From Luteolibacter sp. Y139 (GTDB taxonomy: Bacteria; Verrucomicrobiota; Verrucomicrobiia; Verrucomicrobiales; Akkermansiaceae), in NCBI RefSeq assembly GCF_038066715.1, contig NZ_JBBUKT010000012.1:124001-188000 (forward strand): a DNA stretch of 64,000 nt. The letters run 5' to 3'. The position numbers and the translations under genes were made by a program. How positions within the stretch are numbered: the first letter of the stretch is position 1; the number at the start of each line of letters is the position of its first letter. Below the pieces are notes generated by a model. That model worked only from the letters and a program-made list of their open reading frames with translations. It was not told where the DNA came from and searched no databases. Of this stretch, positions 29,524 to 49,266 are shown in pieces.

Positions 29524-29889
29524 TCAGCGGTTCTTCAGGAATTCCGCGACCTGTGCGAAGAACGGCGACATCGCCGACCACGCCTCGCCGCTGATTTCGC
29601 ACTCGGCCATCGCGGCCTCCATGAGGTCCACCCAGCGGGCCGCTTCCTTGTCGCCGATAGCGAACGGGTGCCGCATGCGCAGCCGCGGGTGGCCGCGGTT
29701 TTCCACGTAGGCCTCGTGGCCGAGGAAGCGGAACTGCAGGAACTCCCGCAGCCGCTTTTCCGCACCCTCGAAGTCCTGCTCCGGGTAGAGCGGGCCGAGC
29801 ACGTCATCCGTGCGGACGCGCCGGTAAAAAGCCGCGACCATTGCTGCCAAGCCATCTGCGCCGACTTCGCGGGCGACGATTTCCTCCAT
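29524..29889 (-). CDS. Group II truncated haemoglobin
   Basis: 121 residues from the ATG at 29889; an upstream in-frame start at 29940 would add a poorly conserved leader. The 2-over-2 globin pattern is clear: AFYRRVRTDDVLGPLY in the B/C region, FLQFRFLG around the CD/E region, and HPRLRMRHPFAI with the proximal-side histidine, followed by ARWVDLMEAAM with the conserved G-helix Trp of group II. Such proteins bind O2 or NO and take part in redox or NO detoxification. It ends 6 bp from the kinase stop (convergent) and is divergent from the UvrA-like gene. Confidence 0.85.
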   Translation of the reverse strand: MEEIVAREVGADGLAAMVAAFYRRVRTDDVLGPLYPEQDFEGAEKRLREFLQFRFLGHEAYVENRGHPRLRMRHPFAIGDKEAARWVDLMEAAMAECEISGEAWSAMSPFFAQVAEFLKNR

Positions 29890-29972
29890 GGATTCCACGC
29901 CCGTGTCATGGCACCGGCCCCTCGCGCGCGCAAGTCCCACGGGAGGCAGCCGACAGGCGGACAGGCGCTCAT

Positions 29973-32900
29973 ATGAACAATAGACTAGCGCGATCGGAAG
30001 TCCTGCCTACTGTCCACGCCGTGCCCGCGAAGAAGTCCGCCACTCCTCCCCGTCCGCAAGCCGCCATCCAGATCCGCGGTGCTCGCCAGCACAACCTGAA
30101 GAGCCTGAACCTGGATATCCCGCTCGGCCAGCTGACCGTGGTTACCGGCCCGTCCGGCTCCGGGAAGTCCTCGCTCGCCTTCCACACGCTCTACGCCGAA
30201 GGCCAGCGGCGCTACGTGGAGACCTTCTCGCCCTACGTCCGGCAGTTCTTCGACCGGATGGACAAGCCGGACGTGGATCACATTGATGGCATTCCGCCGG
30301 CGATCGCGATCGAGCAGAAGAACAACATCCGGACCACCCGCTCGACTGTCGGCACGCTGACCGAGATCAATGACTACCTGAAGCTGCTCTACGCCCGCTT
30401 GGCCAAGGGCTACGATCCGGACACCGGCGAGGAGATCTTTCCGGACTCTCCGGAGAGCGCCACCGCCTGGGCTTTCGAGAATCTCGCCAAGCAGCAGGTG
30501 CTGGTCACCTTTCCTGTCGCGATTCCCGCGGATACGAAGAGCGAGGACCTGTTTCCTTTCCTCAGCCAGCAGGGCTATCTGAGGGTTTTGATCGGAGATG
30601 AGATCGTCCGCACGGATGATCCGGGCAGCGCCAATCTCAAGGCCCGCACGATCAGCGTGATCCAGGACCGGGTCACTGTCGCAGACAGCGATCGCACGCG
30701 TCTGCTGGAGGCGCTTGAGCATGCATTCACCCTGGGCAAGGGCCATGCGACGCTTTCGCTCGCTTCCAAGCCGCAGGCTTCGGCGAAGGGCTTCTCCGCG
30801 ACCTGGACCAATCCCGCCACGGGCAACTCGCTGCGTGCCCCCTCCCCTGCCCTCTTCTCTTTCAACAACCCGCTCGGCGCCTGTCCCAAGTGCCGCGGCT
30901 TCGGCCGGGTCATCGGCCTCGACCTCGACAAATCGGTTCCCGATCCCTCGCTGACGATCCGGCAAGGCGTCATCAAGCCCTTCCAAGGCGAGCGTGGCGA
31001 GGAATGCCAGCGCGACCTGCTGCGCTGCTGCAAGGAGCACCGCGTCGACATCGACACGGCGTGGGAAGACATGGACGAGTCTACCCGCGAGTGGATCTAC
31101 TACGGGGATCGTAAATCAAGCGGCTCCGAAGACCTCGAGGAACTCTGGCGCTCCGGTGGCTGGTATGGCGTGAAGGGCTTCTTCGACTGGCTGGAAACGA
31201 AGGCCTACAAGATGCACGTCCGCATCTTCCTCAGCCGCTATCGCTCCTACACGACCTGTGCGACCTGCCGCGGCAAGCGGCTGCAGCCGGAAGCGCTGTG
31301 CTTCAAGATCGATGGCAAGACCTTGCCCGATCTGTGGACGCTGCCGCTCACCGATCTCTCCGCTTGGTTCTCCACCCTGATCACGGATCAACGCTCACTG
31401 GGCACTCAAGACGCGTCACTGAAACTGATCCTCACCGAGATCACTTCGCGCCTGAAGTATCTCGATGAAGTCGGACTCGGCTACCTGACCCTCGATCGTC
31501 CCGCCCGCACCCTGAGCGGCGGCGAGATCGAGCGTGTGAATCTCACGACCTGCCTGGGAGCTTCCCTCACCAATACGCTGTTCGTTCTCGACGAGCCCAC
31601 GGTCGGGCTGCACCCGCGCGACATCCATCGCCTCGTCGGTGTGATGCACGGGCTGCGCGACAAGGGGAACACGCTGGTGGTAGTGGAGCATGAGGAAGCG
31701 GTGATGCGCGCAGCCGATCAGATCCTGGATATCGGTCCGGCGGCCGGCATTCACGGTGGTGAGCTGGTTTACCAGGGCACCGTGGCTGCGCCGTCGAAAG
31801 GGAAGTCCGCCAAGAATGGGATCGGCACGCTCCCTTGGCTGAATGGTGGCAAGTCGATCGCTATTCCTGCCAAGCGCCGCAAGCCTGGCAAGGCGAAGCT
31901 CGAACTCCGCGGTGCGTCCCGCCACAATCTGAAGAAGCTCGATGTGGATCTTCCGCTCGGTCTTTTCGTTTGCCTCACCGGCGTTTCCGGATCGGGCAAG
32001 TCGACCTTCGCCCACGATGTCCTCTACGCGAACCTCTGCCGCAAGCTGCGGAAGGAGGAAGCAGAACTCGATCCCGCGCCGCTCAAGGAACTACGGGGAA
32101 CGCAGTACTTGAAGGATGTGCTGCTCGTCGATCAGTCGCCGCTGGCTCGCACGCCGCGGTCAACGCCAGCGGTGCTGCTGGGTGCCTTCGATCCGATCCG
32201 CCAGCTCTTCGCGCTGACCGATGACGCGAAATCGCGTGGCCTGCAAACTGGCTTCTTCTCTTTCAACTCCGGCGAGGGTCGCTGCGACCGTTGTGCCGGT
32301 GCTGGCAGCGAAAAGGTGGAGATGCAATTCCTTTCCGACCTCCATGTCACCTGTCCGGACTGCAATGGCCGCCGCTACAAGCCATCGACGCTCGATCTCC
32401 ACTATCTCGGAAAATCCATCGCGGACATTCTGGATCTGAGCATCGAGGAGGCGCTCGCATTCTACGGCGAGACCGAAGGACTGCCGACGAATCACGCGAA
32501 GCGTCACGAGCAGATCACAAAGCTGCTCCAACCACTGGCGGAAGTCGGCCTCGGCTACCTCAAGCTTGGCCAGCCGCTGAACACGCTTTCCGGCGGTGAG
32601 TCGCAGCGTCTCAAGCTTTGCCAGCTTCTGGCGGAAGCCACCGGACGCGATGGCAGCACGTCGAAGCTGCTCATTCTCGACGAGCCCACGACCGGCCTAC
32701 ATTTCTCCGACATCGAGCGCTTGCTCGGGGTTTTCCAGCGGCTGGTAGATGCAGGACAGAGCCTGCTGGTCATCGAGCACAATCTCGACGTCATCAAGTG
32801 TGCCGACTGGATCCTCGATCTCGGTCCTGAGGCTGGTGCGAACGGTGGCAAGCTGGTCGCGGAAGGATCGCCCGAGCACATCGCCGAGCAGGGCACCGAG

Positions 32901-35678
32901 ACCGCGCGTTTCCTCAAGCCAATGCTCCAAGGCGAGGTGGCTCGTACCGGCGCGCCATCGAAGGCGGCCGCAACTCCTGCGATTTCTCCCACGTCCAATA
33001 CGATCTCCCTGCGCGGCGCTCGTGAGCACAACCTGAAGAACATCTCGATCGATATCCCGCGGGATCAGTTCGTGGTAGTCTCCGGCCTGAGCGGCTCGGG
33101 CAAGTCGACGCTCGCCTTCGATATTCTCTTCGCGGAAGGACAGCGACGCTTCCTGGACTCGATGTCGGCTTATGCGCGGCAGTTCGCGGAGCAGCTGGAA
33201 AAGCCGGAGCTCGATTCACTTGCCGGCTTGCCACCGACCGTGGCGATCGAGCAACGCGTCTCGCAGGGCGGCATGAAGTCGACCGTGGCCACGGTGACGG
33301 AAATCTGGAACTTCGTCCGCCTGCTCTACGCGAAGCTCGGCACGCGCTATTGCCCCGACTGCAATGTTCCGGTCGAGAAGCAGTCGCTGGCAGCGATTGA
33401 GCAAAGCATCCGCAACCTGCTGAAGAAGGGATCGGTCTCGATCCTCGCGCCAGTGATTCGCGGACGAAAGGGCTACCACACGGAAGTCGCCGAGTGGGCG
33501 CTGAAGCATGGATATACGAGACTTCTCGTAGACAAGCAGTTCCGCGATGCCGAGGGCTTCACCCGTCTGGAGCGTTTCAAGGAACACGACATCGATGTCG
33601 TCGTTTCCGAAGTGGCGAAGGCTGGTGGCAAGGACTCTGCCATCTCCGAGCTGCCCGCTACGATTTCCAAGGCCCTCGATATCGGCAAAGGGGTGCTGAA
33701 GCTCTTCACGCCGGACAAGAAGTTCATCCTCCTTTCGTCGGAAGCGAGTTGCCCGAGCTGCCACAAGTCCTTTGAGGAACTCGATCCGCGGCTGTTCTCC
33801 TTCAACTCGCCGCATGGCTGGTGCACGCAGTGCCGCGGCCATGGTGTGGTGCCGAAGCATCGCTTCCACCTCGATACCTCGCGTTACGAATCCGTGCTCG
33901 AGGCGGAGATGGATGCCGATCGCAAGATCGAGCGGATGGAGGACGAGGAACTCGTCGAGTGCCCGACTTGCCATGGCGCCCGTCTCAATGACGAAGCACG
34001 AGCGGTGCGCTTGCAGGGAACGCCGCTGGCAGATCTCGCGCGTCTGGCCGTCGATCATGCGGGCGGACATTTCGACAAGCTCACCATCCGCGGCGACCGC
34101 GACCAACTCATCGCCCGCGACATCCTTCCGGAGATCCGCCAGCGGCTCTCGTTCTTGCAAGAAGTCGGCCTCGGCTACCTCCAGCTCGATCGCTCGGCCA
34201 AGACCCTGAGCGGCGGCGAGAGCCAGCGCATTCGCCTGGCAGCGCAGCTCGGATCCAATCTGCGCGGCGTGCTCTACGTGCTCGACGAGCCGACCATCGG
34301 CCTTCATCCGCGCGACAATGCGGCTTTGTTAGAAACCTTGGTCGCGCTGCGGGATCGCGGCAACAGCTTGATCGTCGTGGAGCATGACGAAGACACGATC
34401 GCCCGCGCGGACCATCTCATCGATCTCGGCCCGGGTGCGGGACGGCTCGGTGGTGAAGTGGTGTATCAAGGCGCTCCGCCGCAGGCTCCAAGTGCTCTCA
34501 ACGGAAAAGGCGGCAAGAAGAAGTCGGCTGCCGATGACTCGGCGCTCATGGTATCGCCCACCTATCGCGCGCTCACTCATCCCATCATTCACCCGACCCG
34601 CGGTGGTCGTCGTGCGGTGAAGAAGGACCATCCTTTCGCCACGGTCAGCGAGTGCCGCGTGAACAACCTGAAGAGCATCGAAGCGGCGATTCCGCTCGGT
34701 CGCCTGACGGTTCTAACAGGCATCTCCGGTTCCGGGAAATCCACGCTGATGCATTCGTGCCTCGCGGTAGCCGCGACTGCCGGCAAGACCAAGAGCAAGA
34801 AGAAGGATGCCCCGTTCACGAAAGCCACGGGCTTTGAAAAGCTGCAGTCGGTCTATGAAGTCGATCAGTCGCCGATCGGCAAGACCTCGCGCTCCTGCCC
34901 GGCGACGTATGTGAAGGTCTTCGACGATATCCGGAAGCTCTTCGCCCAGCTTCCTGACTCGCGCGTCCGCGGGTATGAGGCCTCGCGCTTCTCCTTCAAT
35001 ACCGGCGATGGCCGCTGCGCGATCTGCGAGGGCAATGGCCGCGTGAAGCTGGAGATGGATTTCCTGCCCAGCACCTGGGTCCCGTGCGAGGCGTGTGCGG
35101 AGATGCGCTACAATCCCGCCACGCTGGAAGTCCGCTTCCGTGAGAAGAACATCGGTGAGGTGCTGCGCATGACGATCGAACAGGCGGCCGAGTTCTTCGA
35201 GTCACAGCCGCGCATCGCCGCGCCGCTGAAGCTGCTGGCGGACACCGGCCTCGGCTACCTCCAGCTTGGCCAGCCATCGCCCACGCTCTCCGGCGGCGAG
35301 GCACAGCGCATCAAGCTGGTCACGGAGCTGACCAAGGGCCGCGTCTCCGCGAAGAACCTCAAGACGCTCAACCGCACCAATCTCTACCTGATCGAGGAGC
35401 CGACGGTCGGTCTGCATCTGGAAGACGTGAAGCGGTTGATCGACGTGCTGCACCGCTTGGTCGATGAAGGCCATACGGTCGTGGTCATCGAGCACCACAT
35501 GGCCGTTGCTGCGGAGGCGGACTGGATCCTCGACCTCGGTCCCGAGGCCGGCGACCACGGCGGCAAGATCATCGCGCAGGGCGCGCCGGAAACGGTGGCG
35601 AAGTCGAAGCAGTCCCGCACCGCGCCATTCCTGGCGGCGGCACTCGCCGGAACCTTGCCAAGCCACGCGAAACGGTGA
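29973..35678 (+). CDS. Giant UvrA-like ATPase with four ABC units (tandem UvrA)
   Basis: 1901 residues from the ATG at 29973, about twice the length of normal UvrA (about 940). It is a head-to-tail duplication. Four Walker A motifs occur: GPSGSGKSS (59), GVSGSGKST (about 670), GLSGSGKST (about 1036) and GISGSGKST (about 1582). Four signature motifs LSGGE lie near 513, 871, 1410 and 1771. Walker B motifs [18 protein letters not shown] and DEPTIGLHP are normal, but the fourth reads EEPTVGLHL. UvrA-type zinc CxxC pairs appear in each unit (CPKCRG, CDRCAG, CTQCRG, CAICEG). UvrA finds DNA damage as a dimer; here one chain could supply a whole dimer. It may be a UvrA paralogue for repair or drug resistance rather than the housekeeping UvrA. 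Confidence 0.9.
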
Positions 35679-39556: not shown

Positions 39557-39904
39557 GTGAAGGTCGAAAAAGTGAAGTACGTCCTATGGGCCGCCGATTG
39601 GCAGCGCTGCCTGGGTTTCTATCGCGAGCTCTTCGGCGGAGTCGTGAGCTTCGAATCCGAGGTGTGGAGCGAGATCGTGGTCGCCGGTGCCACGCTCGGC
39701 ATCCACGGCGGCGGCGAGGGGAAGCGGACGTGGACGGGGCTTTCCTTCCAGCTCGATGACCTGCGGGCAGGCATCGCCAGACTACAGGAATGCGGCGGCA
39801 CCCTGGCCCGCGAGCCGGAAGACACTCCGGAAGATCCCCTTCATCTGGCCATGTGCATCGATCCCGAGGGGAACGAATTCATGATGACCCAGCGGAGGCA
39901 TTGA
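39557..39904 (+). CDS. Glyoxalase/bleomycin-resistance (VOC) family protein
   Basis: 115 residues from the GTG at 39557, giving the usual VOC start KVEKVKYVLWAADWQRCLGFYRELFG; an ATG at 39488 would add an unlikely leader. The fold repeats beta-alpha-beta-beta-beta units: LGIHGGGEG in the middle and HLAMCIDPEGNEFMM at the end. The latter carries the conserved Glu metal ligand seen in lyases and dioxygenases. The reaction is unknown. Its 3' end overlaps the last 26 bp of the convergent radical SAM gene. Confidence 0.75.
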   Translation: MKVEKVKYVLWAADWQRCLGFYRELFGGVVSFESEVWSEIVVAGATLGIHGGGEGKRTWTGLSFQLDDLRAGIARLQECGGTLAREPEDTPEDPLHLAMCIDPEGNEFMMTQRRH

Positions 39905-40757
39905 AAGACGCGGGGATCCGCTCCAGCAGCCCCTCGCCATAGATGCGGTCCAGCTTGAGTTCCGCGAGGTTCGCGTAGCCGATGTGGCACCTGCAGACGG
40001 CATTCGGGCAAGACCGGGGGCGAAGCTTTTCCGCGAAATCGACGTCGTGGATATTGCCGAAGGACCGGTCGATGAAATGGCAGCGGCGCGCGTGGCCATC
40101 ACCATCCACGGTGAAGCTGGTGTGACCGGCACGGCACGCTTTTCCTTGGCTGAGATGATTGCGGAGATTCACCGGGAAATGCGGGTCGATCCTGCTCAGG
40201 AACTCCACGTGTTCATCGCCGTAGTAGCGCGGATGCTTCTTGATCGCATTCACCCACAGGTAGGTATCGTCCGGTAGCAGTCCGCGTAGCTCCGTGATCA
40301 CCGGGAAATGTTCCTTCACCCCCACGGTGCCGACACTATGTCGAATGCCGAGTCGCCGGAGCTGGCGGATCTTCGCCGCGAACTTCTCCACCTTGGTCTC
40401 GGTGGGGTGGAAAGTGCACCACAAGGCGAGGGTTTCCCTGTCTGCATCTTCCAGCCACTTCAGGTTTCCCGCGAGATTCGTCTGGATCGCGGCACGACGG
40501 ACGTGGGGCATGCTGCCCAGCCGCAACAATGCCTGCTGATATGCGCGGTGAATCAGCGCCTCTCCCCACGGCGTGAAGAGCACGCCGATCTCGCGCGGCG
40601 CCTGGCATTCAATCCAGTCGATGAAGCGGACAAGCTTCTCCGCATCGTCGCGCAGCTCGGCGATGGTGTTCCGGGTCTTCGCGAAGGGACAGTATCCGCA
40701 GGCGTAGTTGCAGCTCGAAAGCGGCCCGCGGTAGAGGATGTCCCAGCGATCTTCCAT
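39879..40757 (-). CDS. STM4011-family radical SAM protein
   Basis: 292 residues. The radical SAM cluster motif is CNYACGYC near residue 16, binding the 4Fe-4S cluster that cleaves S-adenosylmethionine. A second cysteine set in the C-terminal third (CRAGH, RRCHF, CPNAVCRC) suggests an auxiliary iron-sulfur centre. RGPLSSCNYACGYCPFAK and its place next to STM4012- and STM4013-type genes identify the NCBI family named after Salmonella STM4011. To my knowledge no activity is known for it. It is last of four minus-strand genes, 9 bp after the STM4012 gene. The cysteine-rich end resembles peptide-modifying radical SAM enzymes, so a peptide substrate is possible but unproven. Confidence 0.85.
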   Translation of the reverse strand: MEDRWDILYRGPLSSCNYACGYCPFAKTRNTIAELRDDAEKLVRFIDWIECQAPREIGVLFTPWGEALIHRAYQQALLRLGSMPHVRRAAIQTNLAGNLKWLEDADRETLALWCTFHPTETKVEKFAAKIRQLRRLGIRHSVGTVGVKEHFPVITELRGLLPDDTYLWVNAIKKHPRYYGDEHVEFLSRIDPHFPVNLRNHLSQGKACRAGHTSFTVDGDGHARRCHFIDRSFGNIHDVDFAEKLRPRSCPNAVCRCHIGYANLAELKLDRIYGEGLLERIPASFNASAGSS

Positions 40758-40766
40758 CGGCGTGAG

Positions 40767-42089
40767 TCAGACGAGTTCGTATTCCTCCATGCGACTGGCG
40801 ATGGCATCCGAGTAAAGCCACGGGCCGATCGTGTCGGCGCGTTCGAGGCCGTACTTCGTGAGCCGGAAAACACCGTCCTCCCGGATGGCGAGACCGTGAT
40901 CCAACAGCTCTGCCAGTGCTGGAAAGTCGCTCGTCCATGGCAGGCCGGCCCATGTTTCGTAGGCACGCTCGTCGAGTCCGTCTGCCCGCAGCAGCGACTT
41001 GATCAGATAGCGGCGCTTCTGTTCGGCGGCATCGAGTTCGCAGCCATACCACGCGAATCCATGATCACTGGCAGGGCGGGACACGAAATCATCCAGGATT
41101 GCCTCAATTCCTGCCCGGCCGACCGCGTACTCGGTGCAGTAGTGGACTCGCCGCGTGTAGGACCGCGCGCCTGCACCAAAGCCAATCATACCGTCCTCCT
41201 GGCAACAGTAGCTGGCGCCACCATCGCCCTCGACCGGACTCGACTCGTGGCGGAACAGCCGCAGCGAGATCTGCCGGTAGCCGCGTTCCAACAGGAAATC
41301 ACGGGCCTGACGAAATCGCTCAAGCCGGCGGTCGGAGGGATCTCGGCCCTTTCTTCCCAAGCCCGTGAGCGGCCGCACGTAGAGGGGATAGAGGAAAATT
41401 TCCTGCGGCTGGTAGTGCACCGCTTGCTCAAGTGATTCCCGCCAGGAGCCCGCGGTCTGGCCTTCGATTCCGTAGATCAAGTCCACGTTCACGACCGGGA
41501 AGCCCGCGGCGGCAAGTCGCTCCAATGCGGCATGAAGCACCGCCGGCTTCTGCGGCCGGCCGAGCGCGCGGGTTTCGCTCTCCACGAAGCTCTGCACGCC
41601 GATGCTCGCCCGCGTGACGCCCTGTTCGAGGAGCTGTGCGATCTTCTCCGGCTCTGCCGTCGCTGGTGAAAGCTCGCACGACAGCGGGATGCCACGCGGC
41701 AAGCTGCCGGCCTTCCGCAGCATCGCAAACACCCGGTCCATCTCATCGATGGTGAGAAAGGTCGGTGTGCCTCCGCCAATCGCGCCGCGGGCGTAGCGAT
41801 GGCTGCCCAAAGCCTCGGCCGTCACGTCGATCTGGCGCTCCAATGCATCAAGATACCGCGCGACCTTTCCTTCCCGCGGATTGACCGTCGTGAAGAGATT
41901 GCAGAAGCCGCAGCGCATCTCGCAGAAGGGCAGATGCAGGTAGAGAAAGAGGGCCTGCTTGTCTTCGTCCGCCCACAAGTCGCGAAGCGGCAGCGGCGTG
42001 TCAAAGTGCCGGTACGCGGTCTTGTGTGGATAAGCGTATGCGTATCCTTGGAAGGGGTCGTCCTGCAGGCGTTCGCGCAGCGTCAGCAT
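40767..42089 (-). CDS. STM4012-family radical SAM protein (coproporphyrinogen-oxidase-like)
   Basis: 440 residues. The radical SAM motif CEMRCGFC (near 56-63) sits in LHLPFCEMRCGFCNLF. GGGTPTFL, GVQSFVE and NVDLIYGIEGQT follow, the pattern of HemN/HemW-type enzymes that bind two SAM molecules. The C-terminal part (about 350-440) is a HemN-like winged-helix region. Despite this resemblance it belongs to the STM4012 set because of its neighbours and its N-terminus (DPFQGYAYAYPHKTAYR). It is probably not a heme enzyme. It lies 9 bp after the hydrolase gene and 9 bp before the second radical SAM gene, so one transcript is very likely. Confidence 0.86.
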   Translation of the reverse strand: MLTLRERLQDDPFQGYAYAYPHKTAYRHFDTPLPLRDLWADEDKQALFLYLHLPFCEMRCGFCNLFTTVNPREGKVARYLDALERQIDVTAEALGSHRYARGAIGGGTPTFLTIDEMDRVFAMLRKAGSLPRGIPLSCELSPATAEPEKIAQLLEQGVTRASIGVQSFVESETRALGRPQKPAVLHAALERLAAAGFPVVNVDLIYGIEGQTAGSWRESLEQAVHYQPQEIFLYPLYVRPLTGLGRKGRDPSDRRLERFRQARDFLLERGYRQISLRLFRHESSPVEGDGGASYCCQEDGMIGFGAGARSYTRRVHYCTEYAVGRAGIEAILDDFVSRPASDHGFAWYGCELDAAEQKRRYLIKSLLRADGLDERAYETWAGLPWTSDFPALAELLDHGLAIREDGVFRLTKYGLERADTIGPWLYSDAIASRMEEYELV

Positions 42090-42098
42090 CGTTTGGGG

Positions 42099-42905
42099 TC
42101 AGACAGGCGTGAGCATGGTGGCGGCATAGGGCACCGTGTAAACATCGGGATGCCCCACGCGATGGCCATGAAAGCCATCCTCGCCGTAAAGCGTGCCGTG
42201 ATCCGAGAACGCGAGCAAGTGCGCCGGGCCCCGCCGGTCAAGCGCGGCCGCCAGCACCGGCAGACAGGCATCCACATGACGCAACGCGGCGGCATGCGTC
42301 TCTAGATCGTCGTCCTTCTTTCCCGGAAGGTAGTGGCGGTTCGGCCGGTGGATCGCGCTGAGATTGAGGAAGAGGAAGACCCGCTGGTCCCGGGGAATTT
42401 CCCCGAGGCGCTGCGCCGCCAGCGCGAACTGCTCCTCCGCCGACGTTTTCGACGTCACTCCGGTCTTTGAAGACCAATTGCTCTCCATGAAGAATCCCGG
42501 CAACACACGGCTCAGCGGAGTGCGCTTGTTGAAAAATCCCACCCCTCCGATGCACAGCGTGTGATAGCCGCGCGCCGCGAGTCCCGAAACGACGTCCGGA
42601 CCATCCAGCACGCAAGTCGCCGGCCCCGTGGTCTTGCTACCCGCGAAGCGCACCGCAAACAGCCGGTCCGCCTCTGCCCGCGGATCCGCCGGAGTCGGCA
42701 GAAAGCCCGCGAAGAAGGCCTGATGCGCCGGATAGGTGAAGCTCGCCGGTGAGTGACGTTTTTGCCATCCATCCGGAAACCACGCCGCAAGGTTCGGCGT
42801 GCGGCCTTCCCGCATCTCACGGTCCGCCACATCATGGCGCAGTGAATCCAACACGATCCACACGAGGTCGTGACTGCCGACGATGCGGTTCATGTCGATC
42901 TTCAT
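42099..42905 (-). CDS. STM4013-family hydrolase (alkaline-phosphatase/sulfatase fold)
   Basis: 268 residues, short for this superfamily. VWIVLDSLRHDVA near 15-27 supplies the first metal-binding Asp. FSDHGTLYGEDGFHGHRVGH in the last quarter supplies the DH and H metal ligands. The central part (SPASFTYPAHQAFFAGFLPT) holds the Ser/Thr nucleophile region. The family is named after Salmonella STM4013/SEN3800. It could hydrolyse or transfer a phosphate or sulfate ester on the pathway's product. Its ATG overlaps the stop of the HAD gene (ATGA) and 9 bp separate it from the STM4012 gene. Confidence 0.85.
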   Translation of the reverse strand: MKIDMNRIVGSHDLVWIVLDSLRHDVADREMREGRTPNLAAWFPDGWQKRHSPASFTYPAHQAFFAGFLPTPADPRAEADRLFAVRFAGSKTTGPATCVLDGPDVVSGLAARGYHTLCIGGVGFFNKRTPLSRVLPGFFMESNWSSKTGVTSKTSAEEQFALAAQRLGEIPRDQRVFLFLNLSAIHRPNRHYLPGKKDDDLETHAAALRHVDACLPVLAAALDRRGPAHLLAFSDHGTLYGEDGFHGHRVGHPDVYTVPYAATMLTPV

Positions 42906-43576
42906 GCGTGAGCAGCGAGGAGCATTGGCAATTCGGCCATCGATTCAATGGTGGCGCCTTCGCAGTCGCCAGTACGTCCCGGACGTTTCAGGCGACAGGT
43001 CATCATCCCGGCTGCCGCCGCGCCCGCGATATCGCGCACCGGATCGTCGCCGACGAACAGGATCTCACCGGGTCTACAATCCAGACGCGAGGCCAGAAGG
43101 AGAAAGGCCCGCGGGTCGGGCTTCTCCAGCTGGATCCCTCCGGAAAAAAGACGGCAGCACTTGTCAAAATAACCCGCAGCTCCGCACGCGCGCAATTTCG
43201 CCATCTGCATGCCCGGCGAGCCATTGCTCAGAAGCCCAAGCGGCAGCCCCGACTCCCGAAGTCGATCCAGCACGTGAAGAACCGCTGGATCCGGAGTGAC
43301 GTGCAAAGGAAACGCGCGCTGAAAATGACGCGCGGATGACGGCCCATTGCCACCCGGCCCTCCAAACCGGCTCGCCAACCACCCGAAGAACTCCTCCCGC
43401 GGTGCCTGCCCGTCCTGATCTACCTTCCAGGCATCTTCCGGATTCACCGCCGAAGAGCTCCACTCATCTAACAAACGTGCCAGCGCCATGCGCCGGTCAA
43501 ACAGCGTGTCGTCCAAATCGAACGCCACCGCCCTGATCGGGAAACCGAATCGCAACCCGGAAATGTTTGCCACCAC
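42902..43576 (-). CDS. HAD-family phosphatase
   Basis: 224 residues from a GTG start. VAFDLDDTLFD is HAD motif I with the nucleophile Asp; LLSNGSPGMQM is motif II, and LFVGDDPVRDIAGAAAAGM holds motif IV. It belongs to subfamily I with a helical cap, like phosphoglycolate or haloacid dehalogenase-type enzymes. HAD genes are not, as I recall, a fixed part of the STM401x set. It is coupled by ATGA to the STM4013-type gene and leads the minus-strand arm, so a dephosphorylation step in the pathway or substrate repair is plausible. Confidence 0.85.
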   Translation of the reverse strand: MVANISGLRFGFPIRAVAFDLDDTLFDRRMALARLLDEWSSSAVNPEDAWKVDQDGQAPREEFFGWLASRFGGPGGNGPSSARHFQRAFPLHVTPDPAVLHVLDRLRESGLPLGLLSNGSPGMQMAKLRACGAAGYFDKCCRLFSGGIQLEKPDPRAFLLLASRLDCRPGEILFVGDDPVRDIAGAAAAGMMTCRLKRPGRTGDCEGATIESMAELPMLLAAHA

Positions 43577-43591
43577 GAGGCCGAACGGCTA

Positions 43592-43612
43592 GCAGCTTCG
43601 ATCCAAAGCTGC
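43592..43612. promoter_or_regulatory. Inverted repeat in the divergent promoter of the STM401x cluster
   Basis: GCAGCTT (43592-43598) and AAGCTGC (43606-43612) with a 7-bp spacer lie in the 52-bp gap between the divergent HAD and LRR genes. It is the only symmetric element there and could be an operator controlling both arms. Confidence 0.4.
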
Positions 43613-43628
43613 ACGCACGTTTCCCATC

Positions 43629-44543
43629 ATGATCGACGATCACCTCAAGGAATGGTTCGGCCAAAAGGTCGAAGATTACCAACCGGGCGCCGGCTACGGG
43701 CTGTCCATCCCTCGCTTCGGCTACTCCTATGACGATGAGGATGCCTTCTCTCCGGAGATCGTGGCGACATATCTCGCCGACCCGCGTGCTGCCACCATCA
43801 AGGCGCTCGTCTTCGGCATGCCGGGAGAATCCGGCGAGTCCTTCCAAGCCATCATCCGCATCCTGGTGGATCATGCGGGCAAGCTGCCCGCGCTGCGCGG
43901 GATTTTCCTCGGTGACATCGAGCAGGAGGAAAACGAAATGTCATGGATCGAGCAGGGTGACATCGGCCTGATCCTTGCCGCCTTCCCGAATCTGGAAGAG
44001 CTGCGCGTGCGTGGCCAGTCATCGCTGGAACTCAGCCCGTGCAAGAATGAAGGATTGAAGCGCTTGACCATCGAAACCGGTGGCATGCCCACCGCGGTGC
44101 TGCACAATCTCGCCCGCTGTTCCTTCCCGAACCTCGAACACCTGGAGCTGTGGCTCGGCGACGATGGCTACGGCTGGGAAGGTGACCTGGATGACGTGCT
44201 GCCGGCGATCGAGCCCGCACTCTTCCCCAAGCTCAAGTCGCTCGGCATCCGCAACAGCTTGATCGCCGATGAACTCGCGGAGGCGATGACGAATGCCCCG
44301 GTCTTGGGGCAATTGGAAGCACTCGATCTTTCGCTCGGCACGATGACCGACAAGGGGGCCGAGGCGCTGATCGCGTCCGGGAAGGTTCGCAATCTCAAGT
44401 CGCTCAACCTTCACCGGAACTATCTGACCGATGCGACCATCGCACGGCTCCAGGGGCTGGGTCCGAAGGTCGATGTCGGTGCCCAGGAAAAGCCGGACGA
44501 TTGGGACGGCGAACCCCATTACTACGTGGCAGTGGGGGAATGA
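43629..44543 (+). CDS. STM4015-family leucine-rich repeat protein
   Basis: 304 residues, cytoplasmic, without a signal peptide. After about 60 residues with DHLKEWFGQKVEDY, leucine-rich repeats follow with units such as FPNLEELRVRG, FPNLEHLELWLGD, FPKLKSLGIRN, LGQLEALDLSLG and VRNLKSLNLHRN (about 115-280). This is the protein-binding member of the STM401x set. It may hold a partner or substrate protein for the modifying enzymes. It is first of the plus arm, divergent from the HAD gene, and joined to the ATP-grasp gene by an ATGA overlap. Confidence 0.84.
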   Translation: MIDDHLKEWFGQKVEDYQPGAGYGLSIPRFGYSYDDEDAFSPEIVATYLADPRAATIKALVFGMPGESGESFQAIIRILVDHAGKLPALRGIFLGDIEQEENEMSWIEQGDIGLILAAFPNLEELRVRGQSSLELSPCKNEGLKRLTIETGGMPTAVLHNLARCSFPNLEHLELWLGDDGYGWEGDLDDVLPAIEPALFPKLKSLGIRNSLIADELAEAMTNAPVLGQLEALDLSLGTMTDKGAEALIASGKVRNLKSLNLHRNYLTDATIARLQGLGPKVDVGAQEKPDDWDGEPHYYVAVGE

Positions 44544-45661
44544 CCCGCTTCGCGCTGCTGGGACAGCCGGGCACCCGCCGCACGGCGGGCTTTCTCGCCG
44601 CCTGCGCGAGCCGTGGATTGCCAGAGCCGCGGGTGATCCCGTGGGAGGAAGCGCTGGCACCGGATTTCGATCCGGCTGCCCGTTTGTCGGGCGTGGATGC
44701 CTTGCGCATCGAGACGCCCGCCGATTGCCCGGCGGCCGAGCGCGTCCTGCTCACCCGCGGTCACGACACCCGCCAGGCGGAGAGCCACCATCCCACGCTC
44801 GCCCCGGAAGATTGCGCCGCCCTGCCCGATGACGACGGGCAACTCCGCCACCAGCGCCAGTGGTATCTTGGCTTTCGTGCCGTGCTGGACGACATCGACG
44901 CCTGGTGTCGCCGGACCGGCGTGCGGCCAATGAACGCGCCGGGTGAAATCGCGGTGCTTTTCGACAAACTGGCCACCCGCGAGGTGCTGGAGGCGGCTGA
45001 CGTCTCGATGCCGCCCTCGGGCGGGCTTTGTCACGGCTTCGACCACCTCGTCGCCATCATGGACCGGGGCCACGACCGGGTGTTCTTGAAACCCTGCCAT
45101 GGTTCATCGGCATCCGGGGTGATGGCCATCGCCCGGAACAAGCGTGGCGACTGGCGCGCCGTCACCACGGCGCAACCGGACGGAAACGTCATCCGTAACC
45201 TGAAACGCCCGCGCGAGATCCGCCAGCTGGACGAGCTGCGAAGTACGGTGGATGCCGTAGGCCGCCAACGCGCGCTGGTCGAACGCTGGTTTCCAAAAGC
45301 CACGCTCGGCGGTCGCGCCTTCGACCTGCGCGTGGTGGTGGTCGCGGGGATGGCCGCACACGTGGTGGTGCGCACGAGCCGCGGTCCGATCACGAATCTC
45401 CATCTCGACAACCGCCGCGGCGACCTCAAGGCCACTTGGCAGGCGGTTGGCGAGCCGGCCTGGCGACGGGGACTTCAGCTCGCCGAATCCGCGGCACTTT
45501 GCTTCCCCGGATGTCACTATGTGGGAGTCGACGTGATGATCGGGGTCCGTGGCCAGGGCGAGGTGATCGCCGAGATCAATGCCTTCGGCGACCTCCTCCA
45601 TCATGAGCGCTGGCGTGGCAAAAACCCGTGGGAGCTCGAGGTGGACCTCTGGCGGTGGTGA
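44540..45661 (+). CDS. STM4014-family ATP-grasp-like protein
   Basis: 373 residues from the ATG at 44540, overlapping the upstream stop. The C-terminal two thirds has an ATP-grasp layout: FDKLATREVLEAADVSMPP near 143-161, RVFLKPCHGSSASGV with the ATP lysine near 185-199, RAFDLRVVVVAG, and a C-terminal GEVIAEINAFGDLLH that carries the Mg-binding Glu and Asn. ATP-grasp enzymes join a carboxylate to an amine or thiol through an acyl phosphate, as in peptide-maturation graspases and RimK. In this cluster it would be the ligase. The substrate is unknown, as is that of the Salmonella family member. Confidence 0.82.
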   Translation: MTRFALLGQPGTRRTAGFLAACASRGLPEPRVIPWEEALAPDFDPAARLSGVDALRIETPADCPAAERVLLTRGHDTRQAESHHPTLAPEDCAALPDDDGQLRHQRQWYLGFRAVLDDIDAWCRRTGVRPMNAPGEIAVLFDKLATREVLEAADVSMPPSGGLCHGFDHLVAIMDRGHDRVFLKPCHGSSASGVMAIARNKRGDWRAVTTAQPDGNVIRNLKRPREIRQLDELRSTVDAVGRQRALVERWFPKATLGGRAFDLRVVVVAGMAAHVVVRTSRGPITNLHLDNRRGDLKATWQAVGEPAWRRGLQLAESAALCFPGCHYVGVDVMIGVRGQGEVIAEINAFGDLLHHERWRGKNPWELEVDLWRW

Positions 45662-45737
45662 TCTCACCTTATCCAAGGCAGGCTCCATCTTCCCCCTTGC
45701 CACCCCGCCCGGCATTCGCTGGCATGGTGATCTGACC

Positions 45738-47261
45738 ATGGTCTCGTTTTCTGAATCCCAAGGAAGTCCGGCGGCAGCGATCCGGCGCGTGCTGGTGCTC
45801 GGTGGCGGCAGTGCCGGCCTCATCGCAGCGCTCACGCTGAAGCGGCTGATGCCGGCGCTGGAAGTCACGCTGGTGCGCAGCTCCGAGATCGGGGTGATCG
45901 GCGTGGGTGAAGGAACCACCGCGGTGTTCCCCGCGCATCTCTTCGGCACGCTGGGGATTTCCAAGGACGAGTTCTACCGCGAAGCGCAGCCGACGTGGAA
46001 ACAGGGGCTCCGTCTGCTGTGGGGACCCCGCGATGAATTTTTCTACGACTTCGAGTTCCAGTACGACCAGCAGTTCCCCGGCACGCGGAAGGCCACGGGC
46101 TTCTACACCGCGGGTGAATGCCGCAACCTGTCGCAGGCTTCGGCGCTGATGACCCATGGGAATGCCTTCACCACCGGCCCGCTCAATCGCCCGGTGATCA
46201 AGGGCCAGTATGCCTTCCACATCGAGAATCACCGGCTGGTCGCCTGCCTCGAAGGAACCGCCGCGCAGAGCGGCGTGATCCTCGAGGATGACACGCTCGA
46301 CCGCGTGGAAATGGCAAATGGCGAAGTGGCGGCGCTGCATTTCAAGAACAGCGGCAGTCGCACCGCGGATCTCTACGTCGATGCCTCCGGCTTCGCCGCC
46401 GAGCTGATCGGCAAAGCGCTGAACGAGCCCTTCAAGAGCTTCGCTGGCAGCCTCTTCTGCGACCGCGCGATGGTCGCCGGTTGGGAACGGACGGATGAGC
46501 CGATCCTTCCCTACACCACCGCCGAGACGATGGACAATGGCTGGTGCTGGCAGATCGAGCACGAGGGCTCCATCAATCGTGGCTATGTCTATGCCAGCGA
46601 TTTCGTCTCGGATGAAGATGCGAAGGCCGAGTTTCTCGCGAAGAACCCGAAGATCACCACCGAGCCACGGATTGTGAAATTCCGCAGCGGCCGCTACGAG
46701 CGGAGCTGGGTGGGTAATGTCGTGGCCATCGGCAATGCCTCCGGGTTCGTCGAGCCGCTGGAAGCCACCGCACTCGCGCAGATCGTTTATGAATCACGCT
46801 GGCTGGTGGAATCGCTGCATCTCACCGGCGGCAGCCCGGACGAGGGCATGAAGGCGAGCTACAACCGCATCGTCGGCGTCGCATGGGACGAGATCCGCGA
46901 CTTCCTCGCCTTCCACTACAAGTTCAATACCCGCCTCTCGACGCCGTTCTGGACCCATTGCCGGAACGAAACGAGCCTCGGCAACTACGAGGATCTCTAC
47001 CGCCTCTATCGCGAGGTCGGACCGAGCCCGACGCTGCTGGTCCACGCCATCCCGAACCGGCCCAACGTTTACGGCGTGGAAGGCTTCCTCGCCATGCTGG
47101 TGGGCATGCAAGTGCCCTATGAACGCGTGCACCTCGCCGCGCCGGAGGAGCGTGAGGCGTTCGATCGCCACCGCCATAAACTTGCCACCGCTGCCAAGGG
47201 CGGCCTCTCCGTCCGCGAAGCGCTCGATGCCATCCGCAAGTCCGGTTGGCAGTGGACCTGA
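45738..47261 (+). CDS. Flavin-dependent tryptophan-halogenase-family protein
   Basis: 507 residues from the ATG at 45738. FAD Rossmann motif LGGGSAGLIAALTLKR (21-36), VGEGTTAVFP and a lysine (K88 in PTWKQGLRL) align with the catalytic lysine of PrnA/RebH that forms the chloramine. The typical WxWxIP motif is present as GWCWQIEHE (268-276), with Glu in place of Pro. IGNASGFVEPLEATAL is the second FAD/chloride-region block. The reaction would be halogenation (or hydroxylation) with FADH2 and O2; a free-standing flavin reductase is not nearby. It follows the ATP-grasp gene after 76 bp and is paralogous to the next gene. Altered motif IE suggests the reaction may differ from known halogenases. 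Confidence 0.83.
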   Translation: MVSFSESQGSPAAAIRRVLVLGGGSAGLIAALTLKRLMPALEVTLVRSSEIGVIGVGEGTTAVFPAHLFGTLGISKDEFYREAQPTWKQGLRLLWGPRDEFFYDFEFQYDQQFPGTRKATGFYTAGECRNLSQASALMTHGNAFTTGPLNRPVIKGQYAFHIENHRLVACLEGTAAQSGVILEDDTLDRVEMANGEVAALHFKNSGSRTADLYVDASGFAAELIGKALNEPFKSFAGSLFCDRAMVAGWERTDEPILPYTTAETMDNGWCWQIEHEGSINRGYVYASDFVSDEDAKAEFLAKNPKITTEPRIVKFRSGRYERSWVGNVVAIGNASGFVEPLEATALAQIVYESRWLVESLHLTGGSPDEGMKASYNRIVGVAWDEIRDFLAFHYKFNTRLSTPFWTHCRNETSLGNYEDLYRLYREVGPSPTLLVHAIPNRPNVYGVEGFLAMLVGMQVPYERVHLAAPEEREAFDRHRHKLATAAKGGLSVREALDAIRKSGWQWT

Positions 47262-47278
47262 ACCAACCGATTTTCCTG

Positions 47279-48772
47279 ATGAACCCTCTTCGCCATCTCG
47301 TGGTCGCCGGCTCCGGCACCGATGCCCTGCTGGCCGCCGCCACGATCAAGCGCGCCCTGCCGAACCTGCCCGTCATCCTGGTGCGTGATCCGCAGGCCAC
47401 CGCCACCGATCCCGCCGGTGAAAGTACGGTGCCTTCCGTACTTCAGCACCTGGTCCACGCCGTGGGCCTGCAAGGGCCGGAAGTCCACCTGCAGGGGCGG
47501 CCGGTCTGGACGCTCGGCTTCAAGTGCCTGTGGGGTGCGCGCGGTTCCTTCTTCCGCGCCTTTGACGCGCCATTTGCCAACGGCCTGTCTGGATTCCAGA
47601 CGACTCCCGGATTCCTCGCCGCGGAGAAGGGACTTGATGCCTCATCGCCCGGCGCCGCGCTGATGGCCGCAGGAAAGCTCTTCCCGCGCGATGGCTCGAA
47701 CGCCTTCAAGCCGCTCGAGCATATCACCGGCCTCACCTTCAAGAGCGAGTCCCTCAATGCGATGCTGCTGCGCGCCTGCCGCGTCGCAGGCGTGGTGATT
47801 CGCGATGGCAAGGTTACCGGCTTCACCCGCGATCCGGACACGCTGCAACTCGAAGGTGGTGGCTCGATCGCCGCTGATCTTTTTCTCGATGCAACCGGTC
47901 GCGACGCTCAAGTGGCCACCGCCGCCGGCAACACCGCATGGACCGGCTACGACTTGCCCTGCAACCGCGCCGCCACCGTGCTGCGCCGCCGCGGCAGCGA
48001 GCCGATCCGGCCCTTCACCACGCTCGAAACGCTCGAAAGCGGCTGGCGCTGGCGCGTGGAGCACGATGATGCCGTCGGTCTCGGCAGTGCCTGGAATTCC
48101 GATTTCACCAGTGACGACGAAGCCTGTGCGGAACTCGTCGCCAAGTCCGGTGACTCTTCGCTGGTCCCGCAGGTGCAGACGTGGAATTGCGGCTACCGCA
48201 CGGCAGGATGGAGCGGCAGTGTCGTGACCATTGGCGACGCGAACGGCTTCCTGGAACCGCTCTCCTCGCTGCGACTGGTCCATCTGGTCCGCCACGTCCA
48301 ATGGCTGGTCCGCATCCTGGTGGAAAACGACGGCATGCCCGGCGAACGCAGCCGCGAGCTCTACAATCGGGTGGCCACACAGGCGTGGGATGAAACGCGT
48401 GACTTCCATGCCACCCACTATCGCTTCAACACGGCGAGCCAGTCCGCCTTCTGGCAAGCGGCGCGCGAGACCAAGCTGCTCGTCCACGCCGAACTCGTGG
48501 ACCTCTACCAAAGCATCGGCCCCTCGCCGATCCTCGAGTCCTGCATTCCTTCGTGGCCCGGCGTCGTCGGGCTCGAGGCATGGCTGGCGGCATTGTTAGG
48601 CTTGGGCGTGCCTTTCCGTCGTCACCCGGAAATCCCGGCGAACGAACAGAAAGTGTGGGACTCGCATTGCGAGCAGCGCCGTCAGATGGCCCGGCAAGCG
48701 GTGCATGCCGAGCTCTGCCTCGGCGCAGCGCGGAATGCGGTGAAGCCGTCGCCGCGCGTGCCGCTGCCGTGA
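47279..48772 (+). CDS. Degenerate paralogue of the flavin-halogenase-family protein
   Basis: 497 residues from the ATG at 47279. It aligns with the preceding protein: VAGSGTDALLAAATIKR against LGGGSAGLIAALTLKR, PAGESTVPSV against GVGEGTTAVF, SGWRWRVEHD against NGWCWQIEHE, and IGDANGFLEPLSSLRL against IGNASGFVEPLEATAL. Two key features are missing. The last glycine of the FAD GxGxxG is Ala (GSGTDA), and the catalytic Lys position reads Thr (T78 in RPVWTLGFK against QPTWKQGLR). It is therefore unlikely to halogenate by the standard mechanism. It may be a partner subunit or have another activity. It begins 17 bp after its paralogue. Confidence 0.8.
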   Translation: MNPLRHLVVAGSGTDALLAAATIKRALPNLPVILVRDPQATATDPAGESTVPSVLQHLVHAVGLQGPEVHLQGRPVWTLGFKCLWGARGSFFRAFDAPFANGLSGFQTTPGFLAAEKGLDASSPGAALMAAGKLFPRDGSNAFKPLEHITGLTFKSESLNAMLLRACRVAGVVIRDGKVTGFTRDPDTLQLEGGGSIAADLFLDATGRDAQVATAAGNTAWTGYDLPCNRAATVLRRRGSEPIRPFTTLETLESGWRWRVEHDDAVGLGSAWNSDFTSDDEACAELVAKSGDSSLVPQVQTWNCGYRTAGWSGSVVTIGDANGFLEPLSSLRLVHLVRHVQWLVRILVENDGMPGERSRELYNRVATQAWDETRDFHATHYRFNTASQSAFWQAARETKLLVHAELVDLYQSIGPSPILESCIPSWPGVVGLEAWLAALLGLGVPFRRHPEIPANEQKVWDSHCEQRRQMARQAVHAELCLGAARNAVKPSPRVPLP

Positions 48773-49266
48773 GTGAGCCGCGGCACGGGATACGACTCGG
48801 CCTCGCCCTCCGCCGCTCTCTCACCTTTTGGGCGGGCCTGCTGGTGATCGTGTTCACCTTCTGGGCATGGCGGGATTCCAGTAGCCGCACCTCGTCCCTA
48901 CACGGAATTCGCGGCAGTGCCCAGAGCGCTGTCAACGGTTTGCACATCGAATGGGGTGCGAACTGGTATGAACAGTGGGGGATCTACAGGAAGAATCTTC
49001 CGGCCAACGAGGCAAACTCGAAGTGGCAACGTGACTTCTTTCCCCTGCCCATTTTTGTCCACCACGAGCCAAATCAAGAGAACGCATTCCTGGACTGGAC
49101 CGTCCTGAAAAGCGCCATGCAGGCGCGAGTGAATCTCGGCGGCCCTAGTTCGTGGTCGATCTTCCTACCCTATTGGATCATCATGCTCGCGCTCGCCATC
49201 ACATGGTCCGCCCTTCTCCTCAGACGTGCACGGCGGCAGCGGCGGGCCCTCCGTGCGTCGGCTTGA
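48769..49266 (+). CDS. Small membrane protein with two terminal helices, unknown function
   Basis: 165 residues from the GTG at 48769, overlapping the upstream stop as GTGA. A first membrane helix (about 15-32, FWAGLLVIVFTFWAW) and a last one (about 132-152, FLPYWIIMLALAITWSALLL) enclose about 100 residues with several Trp and Tyr (GANWYEQWGIYRKN), probably outside the cytoplasm. No family is recognised. It is the last gene of the plus-strand arm and could be an accessory membrane anchor or transporter subunit. Confidence 0.65.
   Translation: MSEPRHGIRLGLALRRSLTFWAGLLVIVFTFWAWRDSSSRTSSLHGIRGSAQSAVNGLHIEWGANWYEQWGIYRKNLPANEANSKWQRDFFPLPIFVHHEPNQENAFLDWTVLKSAMQARVNLGGPSSWSIFLPYWIIMLALAITWSALLLRRARRQRRALRASA

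Follow-up and report, generated by a model that had tools for sequence, protein, structure and literature searches.

A conserved STM4011-STM4015 gene cassette in Luteolibacter sp. Y139 and the invariant C-terminal glutamate of its leucine-rich-repeat protein

The stretch of DNA analysed here (the window; 64,000 nucleotides, C12:124001-188000, where C12 is contig NZ_JBBUKT010000012.1) belongs to the 7.1 Mb genome of Luteolibacter sp. Y139 (assembly GCF_038066715.1, labelled G000) and carries a cassette of the five protein families STM4011 to STM4015, which together with an accessory HAD phosphatase would constitute the functional unit. The cassette is real, conserved and, as far as the searched literature shows, functionally undescribed. 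Its leucine-rich-repeat (LRR) protein STM4015 invariably terminates in a glutamate, a new and testable observation, and is encoded next to an ATP-grasp enzyme, STM4014, with kinship to ligases of C-terminal glutamates. We see about an even chance that STM4015 is a protein substrate or carrier whose terminal Glu is charged by STM4014, with the radical S-adenosylmethionine (SAM) enzymes STM4011 and STM4012 and the phospho-hydrolase(s) acting on the tethered group. The more general proposal, that STM4011-STM4015 represent an undescribed kind of protein-tethered biosynthesis or modification system in which an LRR carrier is charged at its terminal Glu by a LysX-like ligase and radical SAM chemistry takes place on the tethered group, in at least seven bacterial phyla, is put forward tentatively, as a possibility somewhat short of even.

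The gene list was checked by open reading frame (ORF) calling and by hidden Markov model (HMM) scans against NCBIfam and Pfam. All five STM4011-STM4015 families, adjacent in one locus, exceed the curated NCBIfam cut-offs, in agreement with the family identification of the initial annotation, whose gene coordinates, strands and spacing are likewise correct according to ORF calling. The same annotation knew of no established joint function, and the literature searched, which covered few subscription papers, yielded no described function; two papers name an STM401x gene, in the parts available in tables only. The NCBIfam names of the five families give no function beyond the enzyme class.

The C-terminal tail of STM4015 and the STM4014 ligase

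STM4015 (43629-44543, plus strand; NF038076, 300 bits at a cut-off of 275) is modelled as a confident LRR fold with a predicted local distance difference test (pLDDT) score of 85. The window protein closes with HYYVAVGE-COOH, the codons of which occupy positions 44517-44540 up to the stop. For the comparison of tails, STM4015 ORFs scoring above 60 bits and closed by a stop were taken from 28 clusters (n = 33). The terminal residue is Glu in 33 of 33 ORFs, which come from seven phyla (Verrucomicrobiota, Myxococcota, Pseudomonadota, Actinomycetota, Deinococcota, Bacillota and Bacteroidota) and of which a greedy pick retains 27 that are less than 70% identical to one another. Positions -7 to -2 of the tail carry 2.93-3.29 bits, and the alignment places a linker of variable length in front of it. 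RYVAVGE, RFVALGE and YYVAVGE are the commonest tails; in the divergent ones of Salmonella (YMNAMYTE), Bacteroides (WYYPMITE) and Paenibacillus (WRYPSLTE) nothing but the outline and the Glu is retained. The C-terminal 12 residues of STM4014 (27 sequences), STM4013 (30), STM4012 (28) and STM4011 (29) served as a control; they peak at 1.60, 1.25, 2.85 and 1.29 bits, respectively, and none of their positions is invariant. Five clusters contain two STM4015 copies with bodies 48-54% identical, in which 7, 6, 6, 6 and 4 of the last seven residues match. Such like tails on diverged duplicate bodies would be expected of a tail that faces a shared enzyme.

The STM4014 gene (44540-45661, plus strand; NF038074, 334 bits, cut-off 175) overlaps the end of STM4015 in the tetranucleotide ATGA and codes for a RimK/LysX-like ATP-grasp ligase. 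When a profile of 27 STM4014 proteins is compared with the PDB, LysX is retrieved first (1uc8 and 1uc9, E 1.5e-9; 3vpd, E 3e-9), then RimK (E 7e-5), an enzyme that ligates onto the C-terminal glutamate of a protein, ribosomal protein S6. One of the stretches aligned with LysX ends at the GS of the ATP-grasp loop, which reads GSSASG in STM4014, where S202, A204 and G206 are invariant and G201 is almost so; the other spans DIRV...RRS..WITN, of which D-RV...R.S...ITN is shared. According to the accessible part of a published account (PMC10433800), the C-terminal Glu of LysW receives the substrate of LysX on its gamma-carboxyl, and LysX recognises the EDWGE tail of LysW by a GSWGR motif and the amino substrate by a five-residue motif. 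Judged from these alignments, the GS of STM4014 would correspond to that of GSWGR and the shared ITN would lie in the substrate motif of LysX. Among single STM4014 proteins, 17 of 27 match the RimK model at E <= 0.001, 16 the MptN model and nine the LysX model (LysX_arch); the window protein is not among the LysX_arch matches listed. An AlphaFold2 model of STM4014 built with five sequences (pLDDT 84) gives LysX and ArgX-LysW as the first Foldseek matches (both E 2.0e-11), followed by PsnB in third and Ddl in fifth place. In the VIA comparison of the same model RimK reaches Z 22.8 (rmsd 2.8, 265 residues aligned), LysX 22.7 (2.9, 267) and ArgX 22.6 (2.9, 268).

In the proposed mechanism, STM4014 would use ATP to form an acyl phosphate on the terminal Glu carboxylate of STM4015 and would couple the activated Glu to an amine, either an amino acid or a small amine. 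STM4011, whose invariant SPASM-like cysteines are of the kind seen in peptide-modifying enzymes, and the HemN-type STM4012 would then rework the tethered group or the tail itself by radical chemistry, and STM4013 and, where present, the HAD enzyme may cleave a phosphate (or sulfate) ester or diester on the substrate or remove a like group. The family identities, the conservation of the cassette, the invariant C-terminal Glu and the relation of STM4014 to C-terminal-Glu ligases are observed; the terminal Glu as ligation site, the order of the steps and the nature of the amine are inferred, and the product might either be released or stay on STM4015. The terminal Glu makes an orphan gene set testable, by a mass shift at one known residue, and if the proposal is true, the small group of carrier-protein pathways would gain a member with radical SAM enzymes and, as carrier, a large LRR protein.

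A number of observations weigh against a charged carrier. On the side of the ligase, biotin carboxylases follow in the profile comparison at E 3e-4, the alignment with LysX consists of two partial stretches of 23.5 and 15.3 bits, and the window STM4014 scores 19 bits with the RimK family model, below its cut-off of 143. A PurK-type synthase (Z 22.1, rmsd 2.9, 271 aligned) counts as tied in the VIA comparison, so that the fold alone does not decide the ligase type; PPIP5K (21.6), glutathione synthetase (21.4) and Ddl (20.6) lie close by. In two clusters, L122 and L141, STM4014 is not found by BLAST although STM4015, with its tail, and the remaining three genes are present. On the side of the carrier, STM4015 is not LysW-like, since it lacks EDWGE and has an LRR body, and the cassette contains no releasing peptidase. 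A conserved end is, moreover, not unique to STM4015: the C-terminus of STM4012 is partly conserved, and a DUF6745 protein and its small partner, which accompany some of the clusters, have conserved C-termini too (13 sequences each, up to 4.32 bits). Finally, an LRR gene without the tail stands at the STM4015 position of L031 (5664-6596, from a Myxococcales metagenome-assembled genome). It scores 47 bits and was thus removed by the 60-bit threshold of the tail count; it is the sole case among 29 clusters, and a pattern search, which would miss tails as divergent as that of Salmonella, revealed no other ORF with the common tail in that locus.

Because the C-terminal Glu is invariant, the LRR protein is taken to be a substrate or carrier rather than a binder. 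The proposal of the initial annotation, that radical SAM and ATP-grasp enzymes together with an LRR binder mature a peptide or small metabolite, therefore comes close in its outline but not in the role of the LRR protein. LRR proteins are commonly binders, however, and it is conceivable, although rather unlikely, that the tail of STM4015 is a docking or structural element that recruits an enzyme or a client, and that the radical SAM and ATP-grasp enzymes act on something else. Residues 291-300 are placed confidently in the STM4015 model (pLDDT 83, as compared with 53 for the last four residues), so that part of the tail may have a structural role as far as the prediction goes, a further point against charging. 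Duplicate STM4015 proteins with differing LRR bodies and like tails would be in line with several adaptors that serve a single set of enzymes, and the tail-less L031 would be accommodated as well. A terminal Glu fixed in 33 of 33 proteins, beside a ligase related to C-terminal-Glu ligases, is in turn not readily explained by docking.

A third possibility is suggested by STM4011 (39879-40757, minus strand; NF038073, 378 bits, cut-off 200). Invariant in 28 sequences are the cysteines C16, C20 and C23 (CxxxCxxC) as well as C208, C226, C250, C255 and C257, which we take to be a SPASM-like pattern, with the C-terminal cysteines presumably binding auxiliary clusters. No SPASM model is among the NCBIfam and Pfam matches reported for the window protein, and the only PDB match at E <= 0.01 is SkfB, a weak one (E 0.0018). 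SPASM enzymes such as PqqE and MftC make a carbon cross-link or a similar change in a peptide. By analogy with ribosomally synthesized and post-translationally modified peptides, the tail of STM4015 might be a core peptide on a very large leader, which STM4011 would cross-link or change and STM4014 close or extend before a protease encoded elsewhere frees a cofactor-like product. We consider this unlikely. It would account for the cysteines of STM4011 and the SkfB match, for the presence of an aromatic residue within positions -8 to -6 in addition to the terminal Glu in each of the 33 tails, and for the graspetide ligase PsnB as third Foldseek match of STM4014. Yet Glu is the sole invariant residue of the tail and none of the aromatic positions is fixed (position -6 has Y in 25, F in five, S in two and N in one), the annotated plasmid copies inspected show no recurring protease or exporter (the other clusters were not searched for these), and among solved structures STM4014 is nearest in sequence to C-terminal-Glu ligases. 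A PQQ-like Glu-Tyr cross-link within the tail was rejected for want of a fixed Tyr position.

The remaining enzymes would, in the carrier mechanism, act downstream of STM4014. STM4012 (40767-42089, minus strand; NF006067, 548 bits, cut-off 380) is a HemN-like radical SAM protein; the profile of 27 sequences matches HemN (1olt) at E 8e-58 and NocN as second at E 1.2e-37. STM4013 (STM4013/SEN3800 family; 42099-42905, minus strand; NF038075, 369 bits, cut-off 250) is a hydrolase of the alkaline-phosphatase superfamily with NPP and sulfatases as nearest matches. Its residues D20, T57, D212, D235, H236 and H248, invariant in 27 sequences, are presumably the metal and nucleophile residues of that superfamily. 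The accessory HAD family phosphatase (42902-43576, minus strand) matches PF00702 with 84 bits. An anti-phage defence system was considered and provisionally set aside, as a PADLOC scan of eight proteins gave two weak matches only (14 and 25 bits), both to radical SAM proteins.

Locus arrangement, distribution and cluster variants

According to ORF calling and the HMM scans, the cassette is divided into two divergent arms, a minus arm with STM4011, STM4012, STM4013 and HAD, and a plus arm with STM4015 and STM4014, separated by an intergenic region of 52 bp (43577-43628). Gaps of 9 bp are found between STM4011 and STM4012 and between STM4012 and STM4013, and STM4013 and HAD overlap by 4 bp. The largest gap between 39879 and 45661 is 52 bp, so that there is no room for a separate short precursor gene, of the kind the initial annotation had proposed to look for, inside the cassette, a point in favour of STM4015 as substrate; the short ORFs of the wider flanks were not searched. 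Within the 52-bp region an inverted repeat (GCAGCTT-7 nt-AAGCTGC) was considered as a regulatory dyad and dismissed, since it is not kept in the related loci compared. The hexanucleotide TAGCAG of the same region is kept in L029, L033 and L034.

The five families also stand adjacent elsewhere. In contrast to the window, where the set is split into two divergent arms and HAD is inserted, the annotated records of Salmonella, Methylobacterium, Streptomyces, Deinococcus and Paenibacillus show the genes colinear, in the order 4015-4014-4013-4012-4011; the cassette is also present in Myxococcales metagenome-assembled genomes and in Verrucomicrobiota. The split arrangement with HAD is common to L029, L033 (seen in part), L034, L140 and L142. 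In taxon samples that overlap one another, STM4011 exceeds its cut-off in 4 of 387 genomes of the phylum, STM4014 in 3 of 38 near relatives, and STM4015 in 9 of 336 genomes of the order and 1 of 288 of another class; the samples of 38, 387 and 336 genomes include the window's own genome. Relatives of STM4011 occur in 13 plasmid records from eight genera. A scan of the genome collection with a single STM4011 query, a weak use of that scan, gave five loci. In E. coli, a megablast search with the Salmonella stretch, which would miss divergent copies, matched 94 of 5,426 genomes, in no case over 80% of the query; of these 94, the 15 matches listed cover 3% of it, corresponding to a flanking HAD-IIB gene. 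The cassette is thus sporadic and widely spread, which suggests horizontal transfer.

Twenty-nine STM401x clusters were mapped. L028 (a fragment with STM4012-4011 only), L116 and L125 (STM4013 only) were mapped as well but stand outside the 29, and L118, with a distant sulfatase-like gene, was left unmapped. The set contains near-duplicates, namely L136-L138, L052/L139 and L121/L122. A homologue of the window's HAD, the only kind of HAD gene counted near the clusters, is present in 9 of the 29. A DUF6745 protein with a partner of about 100 residues containing HEEH is found in 13 (L030, L052, L053, L111, L112, L114, L117, L119, L120, L123, L136, L137 and L139). The two accessories nearly exclude each other: both are present only in L053, and eight clusters have neither, among them that of Salmonella, which adjoins a different HAD.

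Several of the loci show features of their own. The partner of DUF6745 carries the pattern GEVTGHxH...HEEH...RQREY. In Deinococcus ficus (L143) a VWA protein and a glutathionylspermidine-synthase-like gene are encoded close to the DUF6745 pair, and the stretch shown contains no STM401x gene; the glutathionylspermidine synthase class is also ATP-grasp. A plasmid of Streptomyces albidoflavus (L116, 7738-9901) bears an STM4013 homologue but no other gene of the cassette; its neighbours include a NUDIX gene and a lasso-peptide B2 gene. A lone STM4013-like copy is found in Kitasatospora (L125), in a record that carries no annotation. The cluster of Bacteroides finegoldii (L124, 7333-11527) looks degenerate, with an STM4013 match of 59 residues, no STM4012 found and STM4011 annotated as a 521-residue product. 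In L141 another long frame follows after position 9893, in the absence of STM4014.

The halogenase-like neighbours

Downstream of STM4014 two PF04820 flavoproteins and a small membrane protein are encoded on the plus strand: HAL1 (45738-47261; 320 bits at a cut-off of 21), HAL2 (47279-48772; 188 bits at the same cut-off) and an ORF known from the ORF call (48769-49266), which starts with GTG at 48769 and overlaps HAL2 by 4 bp. The latter has no Pfam or NCBIfam match at E <= 0.01 and no clear homologue in 11 genus loci searched by tblastn (best E 0.016). These genes and the HAD phosphatase are present where the initial annotation had placed them, although the flavoproteins and the membrane-protein ORF are not judged to be parts of the system. 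Its description of tight coupling applies to the genes of the cassette, with their overlaps and 9-bp gaps, but not to HAL1, the start of which (about 45738) stands 76 bp past STM4014 with no overlap; HAL2 starts at about 47279.

The fusion of the cassette to a flavin-halogenase module, likewise put forward in the initial annotation, is largely refuted by genus counts, site occupancy and the cluster map. In 18 genomes of the genus, with loci mapped by tblastn, HAL2 (a close relative at E <= 1e-100) is present in 12 and STM4013 (over its cut-off) in 3, namely G000, G005 and G006, and both are present in two. The share of genomes with HAL2 is the same whether the cassette is absent (10 of 15) or present (2 of 3). 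HAL1 and HAL2 stand in tandem in all 12 HAL2-bearing genomes (the window, G003, G006-G012 and G014-G016), in 10 of them at the same alr/VOC site. At this site the pair occurs without STM401x in eight genomes: with alr and VOC in G003, G007, G008, G010, G011, G012 and G015, with VOC only in G009. The interval between HAL1 and VOC measures about 90 bp in G012 and between about 0.9 and 4.9 kb in the remaining seven, and in G000 and G006 it is occupied by the STM401x cassette. The genomes closest in HAL2, G008 and G011 (87-88% identical), are without a cassette; the more distant pairs of G014 and G016 have no alr or VOC matches nearby. Conversely, G005, which is 61% complete, has the cassette with no HAL gene on its contig. 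Across the 29 mapped clusters, a blastp search with HAL1 and HAL2 (E <= 1e-4, more than 45 bits, within the available stretch, which is short for some loci) found homologues only in the window and in G006, and none in the other 27.

A common pathway of the STM401x enzymes and the two halogenase-like flavoproteins, including an oxidative or halogenating tailoring step, is very improbable. Such a pathway would agree with G006, a second genus genome with the same adjacency and orientation, and with a tree of concatenated STM4015, STM4014 and STM4013 protein alignments that groups the window and G006 cassettes (support 93), though a tree of STM4013, STM4012 and STM4011 does not. Since the HAL pair keeps its site without STM401x in relatives, and 27 of 29 clusters lack HAL homologues in the available stretch, the adjacency is best read as a shared insertion site. 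The HAL1-HAL2 pair is a conserved neighbour of this insertion site, a separate genus-level feature; the halogenase link is most likely accidental and the HAL genes are most likely unrelated neighbours. The initial annotation had named adjacency in this genome only as a sign of an accidental link. The adjacency is seen at a single site in two genomes, both of the same genus, which in substance amounts to that. Setting the halogenase reading aside matters in that it could otherwise mislead a search for the product.

As PF04820 proteins the two differ from each other. HAL1 resembles flavin-dependent halogenases in its family match and best PDB match (5uao, E 2e-83) and in a lysine of the motif PTWK (11 of 12 genus copies) or PVWK (1 of 12), which we take to be the catalytic lysine of the family. 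It deviates from the WxWxIP motif of flavin-dependent halogenases, having WxWxIE or WxWxVE in 12 of 12 copies. HAL2, a divergent member of the family, differs by the absence of the catalytic lysine in 12 of 12 (T, N, L or S instead). From these residues, HAL1 is probably an active flavin enzyme and HAL2 probably not a halogenase; it may be a non-catalytic or non-halogenating partner.

In the genome as a whole, 15 PF04820 match segments are distributed over contigs C1, C2, C3, C8, C12 and C14, five of them close together on C14. At 29841-35678 of the window a UvrA-like protein of 1945 residues is encoded, about twice the length of UvrA, with several ABC/UvrA-type matches along its length. The end of this protein is found beside the locus in five genus members (86-96% identity).

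Comparison with known systems

SPASM peptide maturases (SkfB, PqqE and MftC) resemble STM4011 in its SPASM-like cysteines and the weak SkfB match, and graspetide ligases resemble STM4014, for which PsnB is among the top folds. STM401x differs from these systems in that no short precursor gene lies inside the cassette; the candidate substrate is a protein of 300 residues.

The LysW/LysX amino-group carrier systems of lysine and arginine synthesis share with STM401x an ATP-grasp enzyme, in STM401x a probable relative of LysX, and a partner protein that in STM401x has an invariant terminal Glu, often as GE. The partners themselves are unlike: STM4015 is an LRR protein of about 300 residues without EDWGE, whereas LysW, as given in the portion of the source available, is a zinc-binding protein of about 54 residues (PMC10433800). 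The accompanying enzymes are radical SAM proteins and phospho-hydrolases, not the LysZ/Y/J/K set, and no kinase, reductase, aminotransferase or releasing hydrolase of LysW/LysX type was detected in the cassette by HMM scan or is named in the annotated copies inspected.

Modification of ribosomal protein S6 by RimK is similar in that the RimK model matches 17 of 27 STM4014 proteins, that the folds agree (Z 22.8) and that the substrate is a protein with a C-terminal Glu. In contrast to S6 glutamylation, the proposed target of the STM401x ligase would be encoded in the cassette itself and would be an LRR protein, and two radical SAM enzymes are added.

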